Source: an uncultured Poribacteria bacterium
Lineage (GTDB): Bacteria; Poribacteria; WGA-4E; WGA-3G
Length of the DNA stretch: 64,000 nt
Direction: 5' to 3'
Assembly (NCBI GenBank): GCA_951828515.1
Contig: OX639992.1
Span: forward strand, 744,001-808,000
The first letter of the stretch is position 1. Each line of letters begins with the position of its first letter. The position numbers and the translations under genes were made by a program. The notes below the pieces were generated by a model. It worked only from the letters and a program-made list of their open reading frames with translations, had not been told where the DNA came from and did no database searches. Shown piece after piece: positions 7,643 through 48,570 of this stretch.

Positions 7643-7760
7643 TATGGTAAACCTTAGAATTAGTTAGACCCTCTAAAGAGGCGAGGTTAGGAAACCTCGC
7701 CAGCGGTGGTGGAGGTTTTGCTTCTACTGAGATGTCTATTTATTTGTAGGTTTTACCATA
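7643..7760. repeat. TA-ended hairpin MITE, copy 1
   Basis: 118-bp element starting TATGGTAAACC and ending GGTTTTACCATA (terminal inverted repeats) with a central palindrome GCGAGGTTAGGAAACCTCGC. No coding capacity. Nearly identical to copy 2 at 8067. TA at both ends suggests mobilisation by an IS630/Tc1-type transposase. Confidence 0.75.
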
Positions 7761-8180: not shown

Positions 8181-8266
8181 AGGATGACACAAAAATAATA
8201 CGAGAGGTACATTGAGCGCAGTCCATGCTGCAATATGGGCTTGCAAGCTGCATCCTACATCAGACA

Positions 8267-9748
8267 ATGAATAACAAAACGCTCGATCATTTGCTTATCG
8301 CGATCACAGTGCTATTAGATTTCTGTTTCGTCGCCACCGCAATCGTCGTAGCATACTGGGTCCGATTTGAATCGGGTTGGACCCCTAAAGTCCTTGCCTT
8401 GCATAAAGGAGGCACCCCGCCTCTTGACGACTATTTTCGACTCATCCCACTGATGGCAATAATCTGGCTCATGACGTTGAAAGCGTTAAAACTTTATCGT
8501 CCGGAAAGCAACGCGACGTTCTCAGCGTTCTGGACACTCTGCAAAGCCGCTGGTATCTCGCTCATCGCCACGTTAGCCGCACTCTTTTTCATCTATCATC
8601 ACGATGCCTACTCACGCTGGGTTATGCTCTTGGCTACCGGTTTCAGTCTTCTATGGTTGTTCTTGGGCCGATTGGTGCTTCACCGCTTTCGTCAATCAAT
8701 TCACGCCCAAGGGGTCGGCGTAAATCGACTGGCAATTGTTGGGAACTCCGATACCCGCGTCGAAAAGCTTATCAACGTCCTGAATGCTAAATCGGATAGC
8801 GGTTACGAAGTGGTAGGGATAATCGATGAGATAGCAGTCCGCAAAGAAGCCGTCAGCCATCAGCCGTCAGCCGTCAGTCACAAGAGGGTTTTGTTAAACG
8901 TAAACCTCTTAGCCGAAAGCCAATTACAGTCCCTTGGGAAAAGCCAAGACCTCCTTGAACTGGTGCGAAAACACCGGCTTGATACGCTTTTCATCGTATC
9001 ACCGACGGTGCCGAATGACACGATTTTGCAGATTCTCCACGCTTGCGAAGGGGTGCCAGTCCAAATCAATGTCCTTCCCGAACTCTCCGAATTTATCAGG
9101 AACGGTAGGGATACCATTACCTTTTATGATGATATACCGGTGCTACAATTAAGGGAGACACCGATGCAGGGTGGACGTGGCATCGTCAAGCGTCTTATAG
9201 ACCTTGTCCTTAGCGCATTCGCGTTGATAGTGCTAAGTCCGCTCCTGTTAACGATAGCGATCGTTATACGCTTGACTTCACCCGGCAGCGCGATTTTCCA
9301 TCAGGAACGCGTCGGTAGAGGTGGAAAGCCGTTCCGTATCTACAAATTCCGTTCCATGCGCGTTGATGCTGAAGAAAAAGTTGGACATGTATGGGCAAAA
9401 AGCGATGACCCCCGGCAAACCGCACTTGGAAAATTCCTGAGACGCTGGAGTTTAGACGAGCTGCCGCAATTCTTCAACGTGCTCAAGGGCGATATGAGCC
9501 TCGTCGGTCCCCGTCCAGAGATGTCTGGATTAATTGATACGTTTAGTGAATCGATTCCGCACTATCTCGCTCGGCAGCGCGTAAAATCTGGTATGACTGG
9601 GTGGGCACAAGTCAACGGCTTTCGGGGCAATACCTCCCTTGAAGAGCGGGTCTCTTATGACCGATATTACATCGAAAATTGGTCTCTCGCCTTGGACATC
9701 AAGATCATTTTGAAAACGTTATGGGCAATTAAGAAAGGCTCACGCTGA
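8267..9748 (+). CDS. Polyprenyl-phosphate sugar-1-phosphate transferase (WcaJ-like)
   Basis: 493-residue membrane enzyme that loads the first sugar phosphate onto undecaprenyl phosphate in exopolysaccharide synthesis. Seen: 4-5 N-terminal membrane helices (to ~residue 150), a central CoA-binding/Rossmann-like part, and a C-terminal bacterial sugar transferase domain with KRLIDLVLSAFALIVLSP, FRSMRVDAE, KFLRRWSLDELPQFFNVLKGDMSLVGPRP. ATG 8267 is preferred over 8225 because membrane helix 1 follows directly. Residues ~195-225 contain an insertion coded by a dispersed repeat (QPSAVSHK). Confidence 0.9.
   Translation: MNNKTLDHLLIAITVLLDFCFVATAIVVAYWVRFESGWTPKVLALHKGGTPPLDDYFRLIPLMAIIWLMTLKALKLYRPESNATFSAFWTLCKAAGISLIATLAALFFIYHHDAYSRWVMLLATGFSLLWLFLGRLVLHRFRQSIHAQGVGVNRLAIVGNSDTRVEKLINVLNAKSDSGYEVVGIIDEIAVRKEAVSHQPSAVSHKRVLLNVNLLAESQLQSLGKSQDLLELVRKHRLDTLFIVSPTVPNDTILQILHACEGVPVQINVLPELSEFIRNGRDTITFYDDIPVLQLRETPMQGGRGIVKRLIDLVLSAFALIVLSPLLLTIAIVIRLTSPGSAIFHQERVGRGGKPFRIYKFRSMRVDAEEKVGHVWAKSDDPRQTALGKFLRRWSLDELPQFFNVLKGDMSLVGPRPEMSGLIDTFSESIPHYLARQRVKSGMTGWAQVNGFRGNTSLEERVSYDRYYIENWSLALDIKIILKTLWAIKKGSR
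8845..8945 (+). repeat. In-frame dispersed repeat inside the sugar transferase gene
   Basis: GCCGTCAGCCATCAGCC units followed by AAACGTAAACCTCTTAGC and GAAAGCCAA match the intergenic repeat at 13.62-13.72 kb in order and content. Here it is translated (EAVSHQPSAVSHK ... LAESQLQSLG) with no stop and lies in the variable middle part of the protein. Confidence 0.65.
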
Positions 9749-10026
9749 GATAGCAGTCAGCGATCAGCCGTCAGCAGTCGGTTAAGAGGCGATTGGGGGT
9801 CTGTAGAGGTTGCGTCTAAGAACCGGTGCGGTTGGGAATGCAGATCGCACGAATCAGAATCAACGGTATGAAGTGCTTATGCACTTCCCCGGGTATGAAG
9901 GTTCTCCGTGTGGCATTCACCGGGGCGAGTATGCCGCAAAACCGTACCTACCGAGTCTGGGGATTGAATCTCTCTTTTCTCTACAATTGATGCTTATGGG
10001 AACTATTTCAGTGAATCCTGCTATTC
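9749..10026. other. Intergenic repeat debris, no gene
   Basis: Contains CAGTCAGCGATCAGCC repeat units just after the stop at 9748, then GGTGCGGTTGGGAATGC and GTGTGGCATTCACCGGGG, which have relatives at about 27.18, 20.51 and 24.18 kb. Open frames here are not protein-like. Confidence 0.5.
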
Positions 10027-12727: not shown

Positions 12728-13609
12728 ATGAAAGTATTGATAACTGGCGCGAGCGGTAGGCTCGGCGAATTTGTAATCCGAGAATTGGCAGATCAACACT
12801 CACTCGTCCTAATGTCGCGTAGAACACCACCTGCTGAATTCTCGCACCTCCCTTTTATTCAAGGCGACCTAAACAACTTCGAGGACTGCCAGCGTGCTGT
12901 TGAAGGTGTCGACGCAATCCAACACCTCGGTGCACAACCGGGACCCGTTGATCACCCAGATCTACGGGCAGGGGCAGAGGAGAAAGGTATCCCCTTTGAC
13001 GCAACCTTCAAAACGAATATGCTTGGTACCTACTACCTCATGCAAGCGGCGATTGAAGCGGATGTCCACACGGTTGTGATGTCCGGCAGTAATTGCGCAT
13101 TAGGACACGGCTTCCGAATTAGCAAAACGCATATCCCAGTAGATTACCTGCCATTAGACGAAGAACATCCGTGTTACCCAGAAGACTCCTATAGTTTCTC
13201 TAAACGGTGCGGCGAAGACCTCTTGGCGAGTTATACCCGCGCTTATGGTATCCGAACCTATGTTACACGTCCTGCCGGTATCAGTCCAGAAGAACGGAGA
13301 ACGCAGATGGCAGAGAATGCTAAACCGACAACCGCGTGGACACCGTGGCTCTGGTGTTGGGTCGGGAGTGAAGATGTTGCAAGTGCGCACCGCCTGATCA
13401 TGGAGAAAGCGGATACGCTACCCTCACACGATGTCTATTTTTTGAACGCCGATGACACTTCAGCCTTGGAGCCTTCTCAAGAGTTAGTTGAGCGTTTTAA
13501 GCCTGAATTTCTTCCGAAGATCAGAACGCTTGAGGGACATCAATCGTTTATCACTTGCGATAAACTGAAAAACGCTGTTGGGTGGCAACACGAAACATCG
13601 TGGCGATAG
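12728..13609 (+). CDS. NAD-dependent epimerase/dehydratase (extended SDR)
   Basis: 293-residue extended short-chain dehydrogenase. Seen: nucleotide-binding GASGRLGE at the N-terminus, MSGSNCALG for the catalytic Ser region, and catalytic YSFSK (YxxxK). Likely acts on a sugar or sugar acid; the family includes uronate dehydrogenases and UDP-sugar epimerases. ATG 12728 has AAAGG 6 bases upstream and is preferred over the ATG at 12713. Confidence 0.88.
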   Translation: MKVLITGASGRLGEFVIRELADQHSLVLMSRRTPPAEFSHLPFIQGDLNNFEDCQRAVEGVDAIQHLGAQPGPVDHPDLRAGAEEKGIPFDATFKTNMLGTYYLMQAAIEADVHTVVMSGSNCALGHGFRISKTHIPVDYLPLDEEHPCYPEDSYSFSKRCGEDLLASYTRAYGIRTYVTRPAGISPEERRTQMAENAKPTTAWTPWLWCWVGSEDVASAHRLIMEKADTLPSHDVYFLNADDTSALEPSQELVERFKPEFLPKIRTLEGHQSFITCDKLKNAVGWQHETSWR

Positions 13610-13611
13610 TA

Positions 13612-13735
13612 GAATAGCCGTCGGCAATCAGCCGTCAGCCGTCAGTTTTAAGAGATTTTCGTTTACGTATACCCCCTTCTTGCTGAAAGCCGACTGTTGA
13701 CAGCCAATACGCGGAAAGCCAAAATTGGAGGAAAT
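13612..13735 (+). repeat. Full-length dispersed CAGCCGTCAG repeat
   Basis: GTCGGCAATCAGCCGTCAGCC units, a TTTTCGTTTACGTATAC middle, GCTGAAAGCCGACTGTTGAC and a GCGGAAAGCC end lead straight into TTGGAGG before the next gene. This copy shows the whole order also seen inside the sugar transferase gene at 8.86 kb. Confidence 0.6.
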
Positions 13736-42636: not shown

Positions 42637-45600
42637 CTACAGTACCTCGCGTAAGAAACGTGCGGTGTGGGATTCTTGGACCGAGGCGACATCCTCTGGC
42701 GTGCCCATTGCAACGACTTCTCCGCCACCTTTACTGCCTTCCGGTCCCAAGTCGATGATCCAATCTGCGGATTTGATAACGTCGATGTTATGTTCGACAG
42801 CGATAATCGTGTTGCCTTCATCGACGAGTCGGTTTAGCACCTTGAGGAGTTTCTGGATGTCGTCAAAGTGGAGTCCTGTTGTCGGTTCGTCCATGATATA
42901 GAGTGTTGCACCCGTTTGGCGGCGTGCCAACTCTTTCGCCAGTTTGACGCGCTGCGCTTCACCACCGGAGAGTGTTGTCGCCGATTGTCCCAATTCTATA
43001 TAACCGAGTCCGACATCCGTCAACATCTGGAGCGTCCGGCAGATACGCGGATTCTCGTCGAAAAATGTGAGTGCCTCATCTACCGTCATAGTTAAGACTT
43101 CAGCGATATTTTTACCGTTGTAACGGATTTCGAGAGTCTCCACATTGTAGCCGGTGCTATTACAGGTCTCACACGGTATCCATACATCAGGGAGGAAATG
43201 CATCTCGACGCGATTGAAACGATGCCCTTCACACACGTGACACTGTCCCTGTGCGAGATTGAAACTGAACGTACCCATACTATACCCACGCAACTTTGCA
43301 TCATGTTGCTCAGCGAAGAGTTCACGAATTTTCGTGAACAGGTCGGTATAAGTTGCTGGATTGGAACGTGGCGTTTCTCCGATCGCCTTCTGGTCCACAT
43401 TGATGAGACGTTTGATATGACTCACACCGCGGATGCTTCTATACTCCGGTAGTCCGTAGTCGTTATATATCGGTTCTCGGTTACTTGGGTCGATATAGCG
43501 ACTATAGCGACGGTCCTCGGGATCGCCGGTTTTGATAGAACTCCGACTCTCAAGCGCGGGTTTTAGCGTGCCTTCAACGAGTGAGCTCTTTCCGCACCCT
43601 GAGACACCGGTTACACAGGTGAGGGTTCCGAGTGGAATCTTGACATCAATGTTCTTGAGATTGTTCGTTTGCGCCCCGAATATTGCTAACTGTTTTCCTG
43701 TGCCTTCACGTCGGGTATTCGGGACAGGGATTTCTACTTCATCGGAGAGATAAGCCTGTGTCAAAGATTTGGTGGACGACGGTTCATCGGTATGTCGCGA
43801 TTCGGAGATCGCTCCTACAAGAGGAGAACCATCAATGAAGGTATTTGGTGTACCGGTCGCGACGATCTCGCCACCGCCTTTGCCCGCTTGGGGACCGAAG
43901 TCGATTACATGATCGGAGGCTAATATCGTATCGCGGTCATGTTCAACGACGAGGACACTGTTGCCGATATCGCGGAGTTCCTTGAGTGCCGCAATGAGGC
44001 GTTCTTGGTCGCGTGGGTGTAAGCCGATGCTCGGTTCATCGAGAATATAGGTTACCCCGGTGAGTCCGCTACCGAGTTGGCTTGCGAGTTGGATTCTGCG
44101 CATTTCGCCGCCGGAAAGCGTCGGTGCCCCGCGGTCCAACGCCAGATAGCCGAGACCAATATCTTCCAAGAATTGGAGCCGCGTCCGGATTTGGCGTAGA
44201 ACTTCGGCTTCAAACTCAGGTGAAGTATGAATGTGAAGTGCTGGATGTGTCGCTCTTGAGGTTGACACACCCGTTGCGATCAGAAGATCGCTCCTATCAG
44301 TCTCCGTATCATCTGAAATAACTTCCGCCTCGATCCGATTTAACCGAGTATCGAAGAACTCAATAATTTCGGTAATTGACAGTGCCATCAATTCAGAGAC
44401 GGTTGCATTTTCAAATCTAACGCAACTTGGCAAGGGTTTCAGTCGTGTACCGTGGCACTGGTTGCACGCGTCATACGGTGGATGCATGTTTCGTCCGCGT
44501 CCATCGCAGAAATCGCACGCCCCGACTTTGTTGTTAAAAGAGAAGTGGCGTGGCGTCAATTGCCCAAAGTTACTGCCGCACGAACGGCACATCGCGTGTT
44601 CGCTAAGGAAATGCCGCCCCGTTGTTTCTCCGCGTTCTCTTTTTTCATTGTCCTGCGAGCCTCTATAGGCTTGCACTAACACGAACCCGCCACTTTGAAG
44701 GAGTGCCAACTCCACCGCCTCCGTAAAACGGCTTTTTTCTTCATCTACAAGCTCAATGCGGTCAATAACGATAAAGATCTCATGGTGAATACCTCTACTG
44801 AGCTTTGGAGTTTCATCCAGTCGATGAATTTCACCATCAATTTGGACGCGCACAAAACCTGCTCTTTGCAACCGCCGGAATACATCGGCGTAATCCTCGT
44901 TCCCTTTCAAAGCGAATGCCGACTCACTTGCACTAACGTCAACAATTTTACCCCTTGACACACCTTCTTTATCTTCAGGCAGAAGGAAGAAATTTGTGAG
45001 AGGTGCGAGGACATCCACCCGTTGTTCGCGGAGTCGTTCAAAAACCTGCGCTGTTATTTCCTCCGCTGTCTGTGGCTGTACCTCCTCTTGGCAATCGGGA
45101 CAGTAGGGTTTGCCCCATCTGGCGTAAACCGTGCGGAGTCCATCGTGTATCTCCGTGATCGTGGCGACAGTGGATCTTGGGTTCTGCCCAGCATTGGCGT
45201 GCGAAATAGCAATCGCAGGCGAAAGCCCCTCAATTTTTGAGACTTTGGGCTTTTCCATCTGCCCTATAAACTGACGTGCGTAAGTGCTGAGTGTCTCTAT
45301 ATAGCGGCGCTGCCCTTCAGCATAAACAGTATCAAGTGCGAGCGATGTCTTACCGGAACCGCTCACGCCGGTCAATGCGGTCATCTTTCGGTGCGGAATA
45401 TCAATGTCAATATTTTTGAGATTATTTTCTGTAGCACCCCGCACAATAATATATTGGTTTTCGGCTGTCAGCCTTCGGTTCTCAGCATTTAGATGGAAGG
45501 GTGGAAGGGTGAAAGCCCCATCCTTCCGTTCTTCCATCCTTCCAGTCTCTTGCTGACTGCTGACCGCTGACTGCTGACCACTATTCTGCCAGATATCGAA

Positions 45601-48570
45601 ATCACCGCGGAGTGCCCGACCCGTATAAGACTCAGGCATCTCTGCGATTTGTTCAGGGGTCCCCACGGCAACGATAGTGCCACCACCAACGCCGCCTTCA
45701 GGTCCCAAATCAATGAGGTAATCTGCAGAGTTGACGACTTCCAGATTATGTTCGACAACGACAACCGTATTGCCATCGTCTACGAGTCGATGAAGTATCA
45801 TCAACAATTTATTCACATCGTCAAAGTGTAAACCGGTTGTAGGTTCATCAAGGATATAGAGCGTTTTACCCGTACCGCGTTTGGAGAGTTCCCGTGAGAG
45901 TTTGATACGTTGTGCTTCACCACCTGAAAGCGTGGGTGCGGGTTGTCCGAGTTTAATGTAATCTAAACCGACATCGTGGAGCAGTTTCAACCCTCTTGCG
46001 ACCTTTGGAATATCGGCGAAATGTGCGAGTGCAGTACCAATATCCATTTCAAGGACTTCAGAGATGTTTTTGTCCTTGTATTTAATAGCGAGGGTTTCGC
46101 TATTGAAGCGTTTTCCCTCACACACTTCACACTCCACCCAGACATCGGAGAGCAGTCCCATATCGACTTTTTTTGCCCCGTTACCACTACAGGCTTCACA
46201 TCTACCACCGGTGACGTTGAAACTAAATCGTCCGGGTTTATAGCCCCGCAATTTCGCATCAGGGAGACCGGCATAGAGTGCGCGAATCCCGTCAAAGACC
46301 TTCGTGTAGGTTGCGGCATTGGAACGTGGTGTGCGTCCGATGGGTGCCATGTCAATGTTTATAATTTTGTCTATGACCTTGGAGATCGGAACGCTCTTGT
46401 TTTCGATGATACCTCGAATATCGTCGTAATCCCCGGGCACAGTCTTTGCCTTCATGAGATCGCGGGCGAGTGCGCTGTAGAGAATATCGTGAATTAAGGA
46501 ACTCTTTCCAGACCCACTCACCCCTGTTATACAACAGAGCGTACCTACCGGTATTTTAGGGCTGATACCTTGGAGATTGTTCTGACGTGCATTATTGATT
46601 TGCACCCACCTATCCCCCGTCGGACGACGAGATTCCGGTTGAACGATTACCTTATCGCCTCGGAGATATTGGGCAGTGAGCGTATTGCTCTCCTCCATGA
46701 ACTGTGTGGGTGTGCCGATATCCGTTATCTTCCCACCCTTAATCCCCGCTCCCGGTCCGAAATCGACAATCAGGTCAGCCACTAACATGGTTGCCTCGTC
46801 GTGTTCAACGACAATAACGGTGTTCCCCTGATCTCGCAAGTTTAAGAGGGTCATCAGCAAACCGGCGTGGTCGCGTGGATGTAAACCGATACTGGGTTCA
46901 TCAAGGACGTAGGTGACATCGCGTAATCCCGCCCCGACCTGACTCGCAAGACGAATCCGCTGTGCTTCGCCGCCAGAGAGTGTCGGTGCGGAACGAGCGA
47001 GCGTTAAGTATCCTAATCCGACATCCATAAGGAATCCGAGCCGTCCTCGAATTTCTTTCAACAGTTCCGATGCTATGAACGTCTCTCGCTCTGGCAGGAC
47101 TAACTCGCCGAAGAATTCAGCTGCGTCCTGAATGGACATTTCAAGAAGGTTCGTTATAGATGTATCGCCTATCGTCACGGCTTTCACCCACGGGTTAAGT
47201 CGGGTTCCGTCACATGTCCTGCACGGCATTTTGACAAAATAGTCTGGGAAGGTGCCTTCATCGGTATCATCATCTTCAAAGTGGTATCTCTGTTCTTCCG
47301 TTGGAATAATCCCGTGAAAATGAACACGATATTGTCGCAGGTGCTGCTGTGGCTTTCGCCTTCGCCGGCGTCTCTTTTTGCCGCGTTGCTTTCGCCCGGT
47401 GTTTCCGGTACTCCTTGGTGTGTTACCCGTGTTCCTGTCTCTACTCGGGGCGTTAATCGTAAGAACATCGTCGCCGGTGCCGTAGAGAACTGCATGTTGT
47501 TGTTCGGGTGTTAGGTCTTTCCAAGGGGTTTCAATATCGAACCCGAGGTGTTTTGCGAGTGCTTCAGCGATTACTTTTTCCCTTGCGGTGTCTCGTGTAT
47601 TCAGAGGTCCCCATAGGCTTATGGCACCTTGCGTGATAGAGAGGGTATCATCGGAGACGATCAACTTGGGCGAGATGCCCATTTGCACGCCTAAACCCCG
47701 ACAATTCTCGCACATTCCATCAGGGTTGTTGAAAGAGAAGTGGCGAGGTTCGGGTTTCACGAAACTGATCCGGCAGTGCGCGCAGGTGTAATCCTCGCTG
47801 AACAATAGGTCGTCTTCCTCTGTCACAAATGGAGATCCCTCGCCTTCAGTAGGAACAACGTGAACAAGGAGACTTCCGTCTCCACGCATGAGTGCAGTAT
47901 CCACGGCTTGCGCGAGGCGAGTTTCAATTCCCTCTTTGATAACAACCCGGTCAATGACGACATCAATATCGTGCCGTTGATTGGGATTGAGGGTAAACCC
48001 CGGTCGGAGTTCGTATATCTCACCATCGATCCGTAACCGCGCGAAACCCGCCTTGCGTAAATCTTCAAGTTCTCTTTCGTGCGCACCGCGGGACCCCCTG
48101 AGAATCGGTGCCAAAATGATAAGTCTTGTACGTTCTGGGTAATCGATCAGGGCTTCGACGATATCCGCGGCAGTTTGCGAACCGACTTCACGTCCGCATT
48201 CGGGACAGTAGAATTGTCCGACACGTGCGTAGAGGACGCGGAGGTAGTCATAGACTTCAGTTATGGTCGCCACAGTGGAACGCGGGTTATGTCCGGTTGA
48301 CCCTTGATCAATAGCAATGGAAGGAGATAATCCAACAATTTCATCTACATCCGGCTTACCGAGTTGCCCTAAAAACTGCCGTGCGTACGCCGATAAAGAC
48401 TCGATATATCGTCGTTGTCCTTCGGCGTAAACGGTATCAATTGCCATTGATGATTTGCCCGAACCGCTAACGCCGGTGAAGACGATGAGTCTGTCTTTCG
48501 GAAGTTGGATGTCAATGTTTCTGAGATTGTGCTCGCGCGCGCCGTGCACGAGAATCGACTCTTCTGTCAT
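42637..48570 (-). CDS. uvrA: Double-length UvrA: two complete UvrA copies fused in one frame
   Basis: 1977 residues, about twice a normal UvrA (~940), the damage-sensing ATPase of nucleotide excision repair. Copy 1 (~1-990) and copy 2 (~1040-1977) each have two ABC ATPase sites: Walker [10 protein letters not shown] and [10 protein letters not shown] in copy 1, GVSGSGKTS and GVSGCGKSS in copy 2; four LSGGE signatures; four (V/I)(L/M)DEP Walker B motifs. Both copies keep zinc modules (CAHC...CENC, CEAC...CEVC; CRSC...CDFC, CHVC...CETC). The linker (~990-1040, [20 protein letters not shown]) is coded by dispersed repeats. Copy 1 has an Arg/Lys-rich insert (KKRRRRRRK) near residue 400; copy 2 holds two in-frame REP sequences. 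ATG 48570 follows a repeat-borne ribosome-binding site. Confidence 0.93.
43795..43819. repeat. REP-like palindrome inside uvrA, copy A
   Basis: All 25 bases equal to the intergenic copy at 41374; translated in frame as part of [15 protein letters not shown] at about residues 1583-1593. Confidence 0.7.
44260..44300. repeat. REP-like palindrome inside uvrA, copy B
   Basis: GCGATCAGAAGATCGCTCCTA, a GCGATC/GATCGC palindrome with the REP tail TCCTA, translated as part of [16 protein letters not shown]. Confidence 0.55.
45451..45600 (-). repeat. Composite dispersed repeat forming the UvrA-UvrA linker
   Basis: Minus strand order: GGTCAGCAGTCAGCGGTC units, AGAGACTGGAAGGATGG, GGAAGGATGGGG, CACCCTTCCACCCTTCC, then GCTGAGAACCGAAGGCTGAC. 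The first and last parts match the CAGCCGTCAG family, the middle the repeat before sufS (2785-2875). The frame is open throughout. Confidence 0.7.

Follow-up and report, generated by a model that had tools for sequence, protein, structure and literature searches.

The middle of a WcaJ-like sugar transferase gene of a sponge-dwelling Candidatus Poribacteria bacterium, a phylum that to our knowledge has no cultured member, contains a segment that is very probably a copy of a dispersed hairpin repeat, placed in frame in a variable surface loop of the encoded protein. The gene is located in a stretch of 64,000 nucleotides, here called the window, in which the names WcaJ, UvrA, epimerase and Gfo/Idh are putative assignments from the sequences. 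The features on which the argument depends are the following.

8225 to 9748, forward strand: WcaJ-like gene, with CoA_binding_3 (PF13727) and bacterial sugar transferase (PF02397) domains in Pfam
8830 to 8928, forward strand: in-frame repeat element in the WcaJ-like gene
8830 to 8839: left end of this element, GATAGCAGTC
about 8850 to 8877: its heptamer arm
8882 to 8910: its core, AAGAGG...CCTCTT
8911 to 8921: its right arm, decayed, AGCCGAAAGCC
9749 to 9790, forward strand: partial second copy, directly after the stop codon of the WcaJ-like gene, with the left end GATAGCAGTCAGCGATCAGCCGTCAGCAGTCGGTTAAGAGG
13612 to 13708, forward strand: two-armed copy between genes, immediately before the TTGGAGGAAATATTATG of the next gene
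45453 to 45588, reverse strand: in-frame copy, its core of the GGAAGGATGG type, at the linker between the UvrA-like halves of the open reading frame 42637 to 48570

Pfam was run on the sugar transferase and on five proteins encoded elsewhere in the genome, and the orthologues of the WcaJ-like gene in the genus start aligning at its second ATG, at 8264.

The first-pass annotation had claimed that about 100 bp of the transferase gene copy the order of the intergenic repeat at 13612-13708, and this is borne out by the local alignment of 8845-8945 with 13605-13725, which gives a score of 68, against a maximum of 28 both in 1000 shuffles and among 964 other pieces of the window. The parts follow one another as had been described, namely heptamers, AAGAG, GTTAAACGTAAAC or GTTTACGTATAC, CTCTT or CTTCTT, and GCCGAAAGCC or GCTGAAAGCC, and the peptide HQPSAVSHK is present in the protein. 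The segment had been placed at 8845-8945, which is the right location, but the element is a little longer and occupies about 8830-8928. The window contains CAGCCGTCAGC, with up to one mismatch, 10 times, where shuffles give an expectation of 0.70; the sites are 8847-8878, 9765-9775, 13629-13646 and, on the minus strand, 45552-45576. The heptamer arm within the transferase gene is short and imperfect, with about four units.

The remaining copies in the window are weaker than the one in the transferase gene and above the controls. The stretch 9745-9830, comprising the partial copy, aligns with the repeat at a score of 45 (shuffle maximum 22) and lacks a clear right arm; the anchors flanking this site are 9-63 bases apart in nine of the 11 relatives compared, and the other two hold 1376 and 3499 bases of other sequence. 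The UvrA copy scores 35, the maximum being 27 in shuffles and 28 among other pieces. In the spacer at 13.6 kb, heptamer arms are seen by eye in six of 11 relatives and are absent in five, and some of the relatives without arms hold other repeats there. In three genomes (L056, L062 and L069 of G023, G017 and G018), this spacer is filled by a different repeat, AATTTTGCTTGCGCGCAGTCAAGG..., which is doubled in tandem in G023. No match to any Rfam RNA family was obtained at gathering thresholds over the whole window.

Beyond the window, the repeat forms a large family with a common layout, consisting of GAATAGC, an arm of (TCAGCNN)n, a variable core that is often AAGAGG...CCTCTT, and then the reverse-complement arm, (NNGCTGA)n. 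According to a comparison that included an alignment of 14 chosen copies, those in the bacterium's own genome (G000) share GAATRGC, TCAGCNN heptamers, NNGCTGA heptamers and GCYATTC; these ends and the heptamer arms constitute terminal inverted repeats of the MITE type in many copies and are decayed in others. The strict arm pattern TCAGCNNTCAGCNNTCAG has 315 matches in the 5.85 Mb of the genome, where 0.04 would be expected in a random 5.5 Mb, and a reversed control pattern has 12, a number above zero since strings of this kind can occur in the second arm. When 84 genomes of the phylum were surveyed with the strict pattern, it was found in all 38 genomes of the genus (5-315 matches each), in six of 20 from the family's other genera (up to 8 matches each), in none of 14 from the rest of the order, in two of 10 from the rest of the class and in neither of two from the rest of the phylum.

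The build and location of the copies were followed in 67 array clusters, comprising every one that the strict pattern detects in the window and in 42 stretches around the first 100 of the 315 matches (reaching C1 position 2887225), with two hairpins counted on both strands. A rule-based search identified a second arm in 32 of them, which measure 78-155 bases as extracted with short flanks. The hairpin folds on its own with a z below -2 in 24 of these 32 (mean -3.7, 40 shuffles each), in a sample biased by having been chosen for both arms. Only four of the 67 arrays lie inside an open reading frame with 100 codons on each side, compared to 1097 of 3000 random 85-base segments (37%) drawn from the same stretches, and with 50 codons on each side the counts are five of 67 and 1711 of 3000; this scarcity in genes is in part a given, because an element that contains stops terminates the reading frame. 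As a separate observation, G000 has at C1:246396-246636 (L113) three head-to-tail heptamer blocks, about 105-110 bases apart, that form a larger tandem array made from the element.

That the repeat was inserted into the transferase gene is evident from the loop after the VGII strand, which was aligned in 24 genomes of the genus and is shorter in most of them. An insertion or its remodelled descendant is present in five of the 24 (G000, G012, G008, G016 and G023), all with a common AACCTCTTACCCGAAAGCCAATT-like right side, which has CCACTT in G012. Their heptamers are clear in G000 and G012, degenerate in G008 and G016 and missing in G023, and the core of G000 is replaced by CGGGGTTACAAACCCC in the other four. 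The strict scan finds no array in the fetched regions of G008, G016 and G023, and judging by the shared core, right side and position, these three would be descendants of the insertion. Close orthologues with a SAVS- or SAIS-type peptide (G012 and the locus L235) carry the heptamers in their DNA as well, and thus none of them has the peptide without similarity to the repeat at the DNA level. At L235 the loop has both arms, SAISSQPSAVSK ... LLTESRKPKAES.

Other sequences occupy the same loop: a different repeat in G018, a GRMEE-type insert in L243, L252 and L270, and others in L266 and L260. Since several repeats are found in it, the loop is a tolerant site. It is moderately longer in G011, G022 and G015, and measures about ten residues in the others of the 24. 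In L260 there is an independent, PVGETSRSRFPIGEP-like tandem expansion, with 98 residues in the compared interval. In an AlphaFold2 model of the transferase (38 aligned sequences), which is of middling quality (mean pLDDT 76, pTM 0.58), the insert corresponds to residues 191-219, with a pLDDT below 50, and is placed between the strands 181-187 and 222-225; two other low stretches are located at 275-283 and 372-377. The insert apparently leaves the lengthened transferase unbroken, and such lengthened proteins presumably still work.

A transferase tree of 41 rows, built without the loop, groups L236 and the four rows with the insert in a single clade (100/100). Within it, L236 is sister to L235 (98/88), with a DNA identity of 89.5%, and lacks the insert that L235 has, so a single gain would need a later loss. 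One gain plus one loss and several gains are both possible histories of the insert.

In-frame insertion is found in several unrelated genes, the four arrays inside long open reading frames belonging to the sugar transferase, UvrA, an AAA_15 ATPase and a peptidase-MA/PD40/Omp85 protein. UvrA had been named as a second protein lengthened by the same repeat family, rightly so, and the copy is specific to a lineage: heptamer arms around a GGAAGGATGG-type core are present in the linker of two of 28 aligned genomes (G000 and G012), the core only in G008 and G023, other longer linkers in five and short ones in 19 (G006 and G022 were also searched and left out of the alignment). In the AAA_15 ATPase, a heptamer expansion is present in G000 and a core-type insert in G080, G008, G016 and G023, with a short loop in 16 of 27 rows. 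The insert of the G080 ATPase (SSQQETGMEERKGG...) resembles the UvrA linker of G000, the host proteins being unrelated. In the PD40/Omp85 protein (30 rows aligned, 37 genomes searched), whose linker is variable throughout, G000, G012, G017 and G080 have SAVS- or QQS-type stretches. By eye, arrays also lengthen the N-termini of two probable lipoproteins and the C-terminus of an Inositol_P protein. The two probable lipoproteins have no Pfam match; arrays at C1:1799369 (L133) and C1:1763009 (L132) of G000 appear, by eye, to extend the N-terminus before lipoprotein-like signal sequences.

An alternative origin would be growth in place, where a stretch that resembled the heptamers by chance, in a loop evolving fast, expanded by replication slippage and nothing moved in. 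This would agree with relatives whose ATPase loop has roughly a single unit (GAATAGCAGTCCGCAAGAG, GAATGGCAGTCAGCAAGAG) against several in G000, and with the transferase arm of G012, which is seven bases below that of L235. Slippage, however, leaves unexplained why the left end, the core and the opposite arm match in the same order, and also the QQET..EERK..G stretch common to the UvrA of G000 and the ATPase loop of G080, and we regard this origin as improbable. The reading of the transferase segment as a copy of a dispersed repeat is the one followed here, and the family has probably spread as a mobile element.

How it would have spread was approached through the Y1 (IS200-like) transposases that move REP hairpins in REP/RAYT systems. 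Their involvement would fit the hairpin form, the abundance and the six Y1_Tnp matches in the own genome, five of them over the cut-off, but an array is found within the fetched 1.5 kb flanks of only one of these six loci, Y1_Tnp and array counts do not correlate over 37 genomes (rho -0.13, p 0.45), and G012, with a completeness of 89%, has 106 array matches and no Y1_Tnp match. Mobilisation by a RAYT is held to be improbable and was rejected on the loci and the missing correlation. No mobilising enzyme was found, Y1_Tnp being the only transposase family examined. Neither was any target-site duplication readable, the filled and empty sites being too diverged, at the sites compared: WcaJ, the spacers at 9.7 and 13.6 kb, and four sites of the L131 region (compared in G008, G012, G016 and G023, with only one of the four in G012). 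In the spacer after C1:1727051, the element is present in G000 and G023 and absent in G008 and G016.

The first-pass annotation had proposed that the repeat is tolerated because one of its frames has no stops. For the first arm this does not hold, since the TCAGC strand is open in all three sense frames in 56 of the 67 arrays, in two in 10 and in one in a single array, and the opposite strand has no open frame in any of the 67. These counts are largely arithmetic, because the search pattern carries TGA in all antisense frames. The eight unit variants translated show that the TCAGCNN arm gives the stop-free peptide S-A-V/I-S-x-Q-x in every frame, since 7 leaves a remainder of 1 on division by 3, and that its complement has TGA in all frames. 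The second arm fits the proposal in part, with exactly one frame open in 21 of 32, two in six and none in five. Taken as a whole, the element is open in one sense frame in nine of 32 copies, in two in five and in none in 18. Nor does the repeat occur in genes in one frame only, WcaJ reading CAC AAG AGG through the core and UvrA reading CAG CAA GAG. Tolerance by a single frame, as originally worded, was thus rejected, the arm being open in all sense frames and two core registers being found in genes. The constraint is one of orientation, core and second arm rather than of one favoured frame, and it is the second arm that represents the obstacle within genes; in the transferase this arm is short, reads CCGAAAGCC and is without TGA.

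The explanation we propose is that the repeat is a dispersed non-autonomous hairpin, MITE- or REP-like in form and with an exchangeable core, most copies of which lie outside gene interiors. A genic copy may persist if the coding strand carries its TCAGC arm, the host frame runs through its core without a stop, its second arm has decayed or has few bases, and it occupies a loop or linker that is disordered. Once the copy is in place, its arm would change by seven-base steps, probably through slippage, and the core may be swapped for other repeats; in G012, one array is interrupted by another repeat. The repeat would need no role in the host.

A seven-base step is seen between the transferase arms of G012 (L268) and L235, the former being shorter by exactly this length, with a further 21-base difference that keeps the frame (one genome per species), and downstream of the arm the G012 gene is no longer in frame. 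This frameshift may be due to slippage, gene death or an assembly fault. It could also belong to a phase switch, in which the heptamer tract would be a slippage-driven on/off control of surface polysaccharide synthesis under selection, and for which a unit length that is not a multiple of three would be suited. If this were true, the gain or loss of one seven-base unit would shift the frame and turn polysaccharide synthesis off and on. However, the array in the window is short and imperfect, with about four units, most orthologues have none, arrays occur genome-wide and are not confined to surface genes, and a single frameshifted copy from a metagenome assembly may reflect gene death or faulty assembly. 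We therefore hold such a switch to be unlikely, and it would be quite speculative to see here a selfish hairpin turned contingency locus, with G012 as its off state, one heptamer away from L235.

As a non-autonomous hairpin, the repeat has counterparts among known systems. The closest in form and behaviour would be the Rickettsia palindromic elements (RPE), to which it can be likened by description; in the available part of a review (PMC10969869), these are palindromic repeats of roughly 100-150 bases, intergenic and in frame in unrelated genes, that add a similar peptide and vary across relatives. Contrary to RPE, nearly half of which lie within genes (PMC10969869, same part), only four of the 67 sampled Poribacteria arrays are in long open reading frames, their arms are heptamer tandem repeats alike in all frames, their cores are exchangeable, and the phylum is another one.

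Nearly the same heptamer is found in the mostly intergenic TAACTGA repeats (reverse complement TCAGTTA) of Beggiatoaceae, cyanobacteria and Bacteroidetes (PMC4679880). In the accessible text of that paper, one orientation has stops in three frames and the other reads through (LSVISYQ), and 10 sets are inside open reading frames in the readable orientation. The frame logic of the heptamer is thus already known, having been stated there for the TAACTGA repeats, and the Poribacteria arrays likewise consist of seven-base units in tandem that can be read through in a single orientation. The TAACTGA sets are described in the same text as direct repeats, one inverted case excepted, and discussed as regulatory sites, whereas the Poribacteria heptamers form both arms of a hairpin around a core and orthologues show their insertion into named proteins; PMC4679880 makes no mention of Poribacteria.

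REP and REPIN sequences with their RAYTs are, in the portions of PMC3116915 and PMC3733652 at hand, abundant, dispersed and mostly extragenic hairpins too, but the Poribacteria repeat has heptamer arms, a larger size and no link to Y1_Tnp. Borg tandem repeats also create disordered protein stretches; as given in the section of PMC9879509 consulted, all their units in open reading frames are divisible by three, whereas the unit in Poribacteria has seven bases and the frame is preserved by other means. A hairpin with heptamer arms in Poribacteria, with insertions proven by orthologues, was not found among titles and the openings of abstracts in the literature.

What this repeat offers is a simple, nearly frame-blind design, where a seven-base unit with one stop-free strand yields one peptide whichever frame is read, so that the phase of insertion matters little if the orientation is right. 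Dozens of related genomes provide orthologous genes with the site filled, empty or remodelled, and the entry of a hairpin into proteins and its reshaping of them are therefore directly testable. Annotators should be aware that SAVS/SAIS-QQ/QP stretches in these Poribacteria proteins are repeat-derived.

Two further observations concern the window. The open reading frame 42637-48570 encodes 1977 amino acids and resembles two UvrA proteins in tandem, and open frames of about 1900-2030 amino acids are present at the corresponding position in most genomes of the genus that were searched. Another dispersed palindrome, GAGGTTAGGAAACCTCGCC, occurs with 0-1 mismatches at 7683, 8105, 14867 and 39551 (four copies, 0 expected), and a similar one, GCGAGGTTGCAAACCTCGCCAGCGGAGG, follows about 20540.
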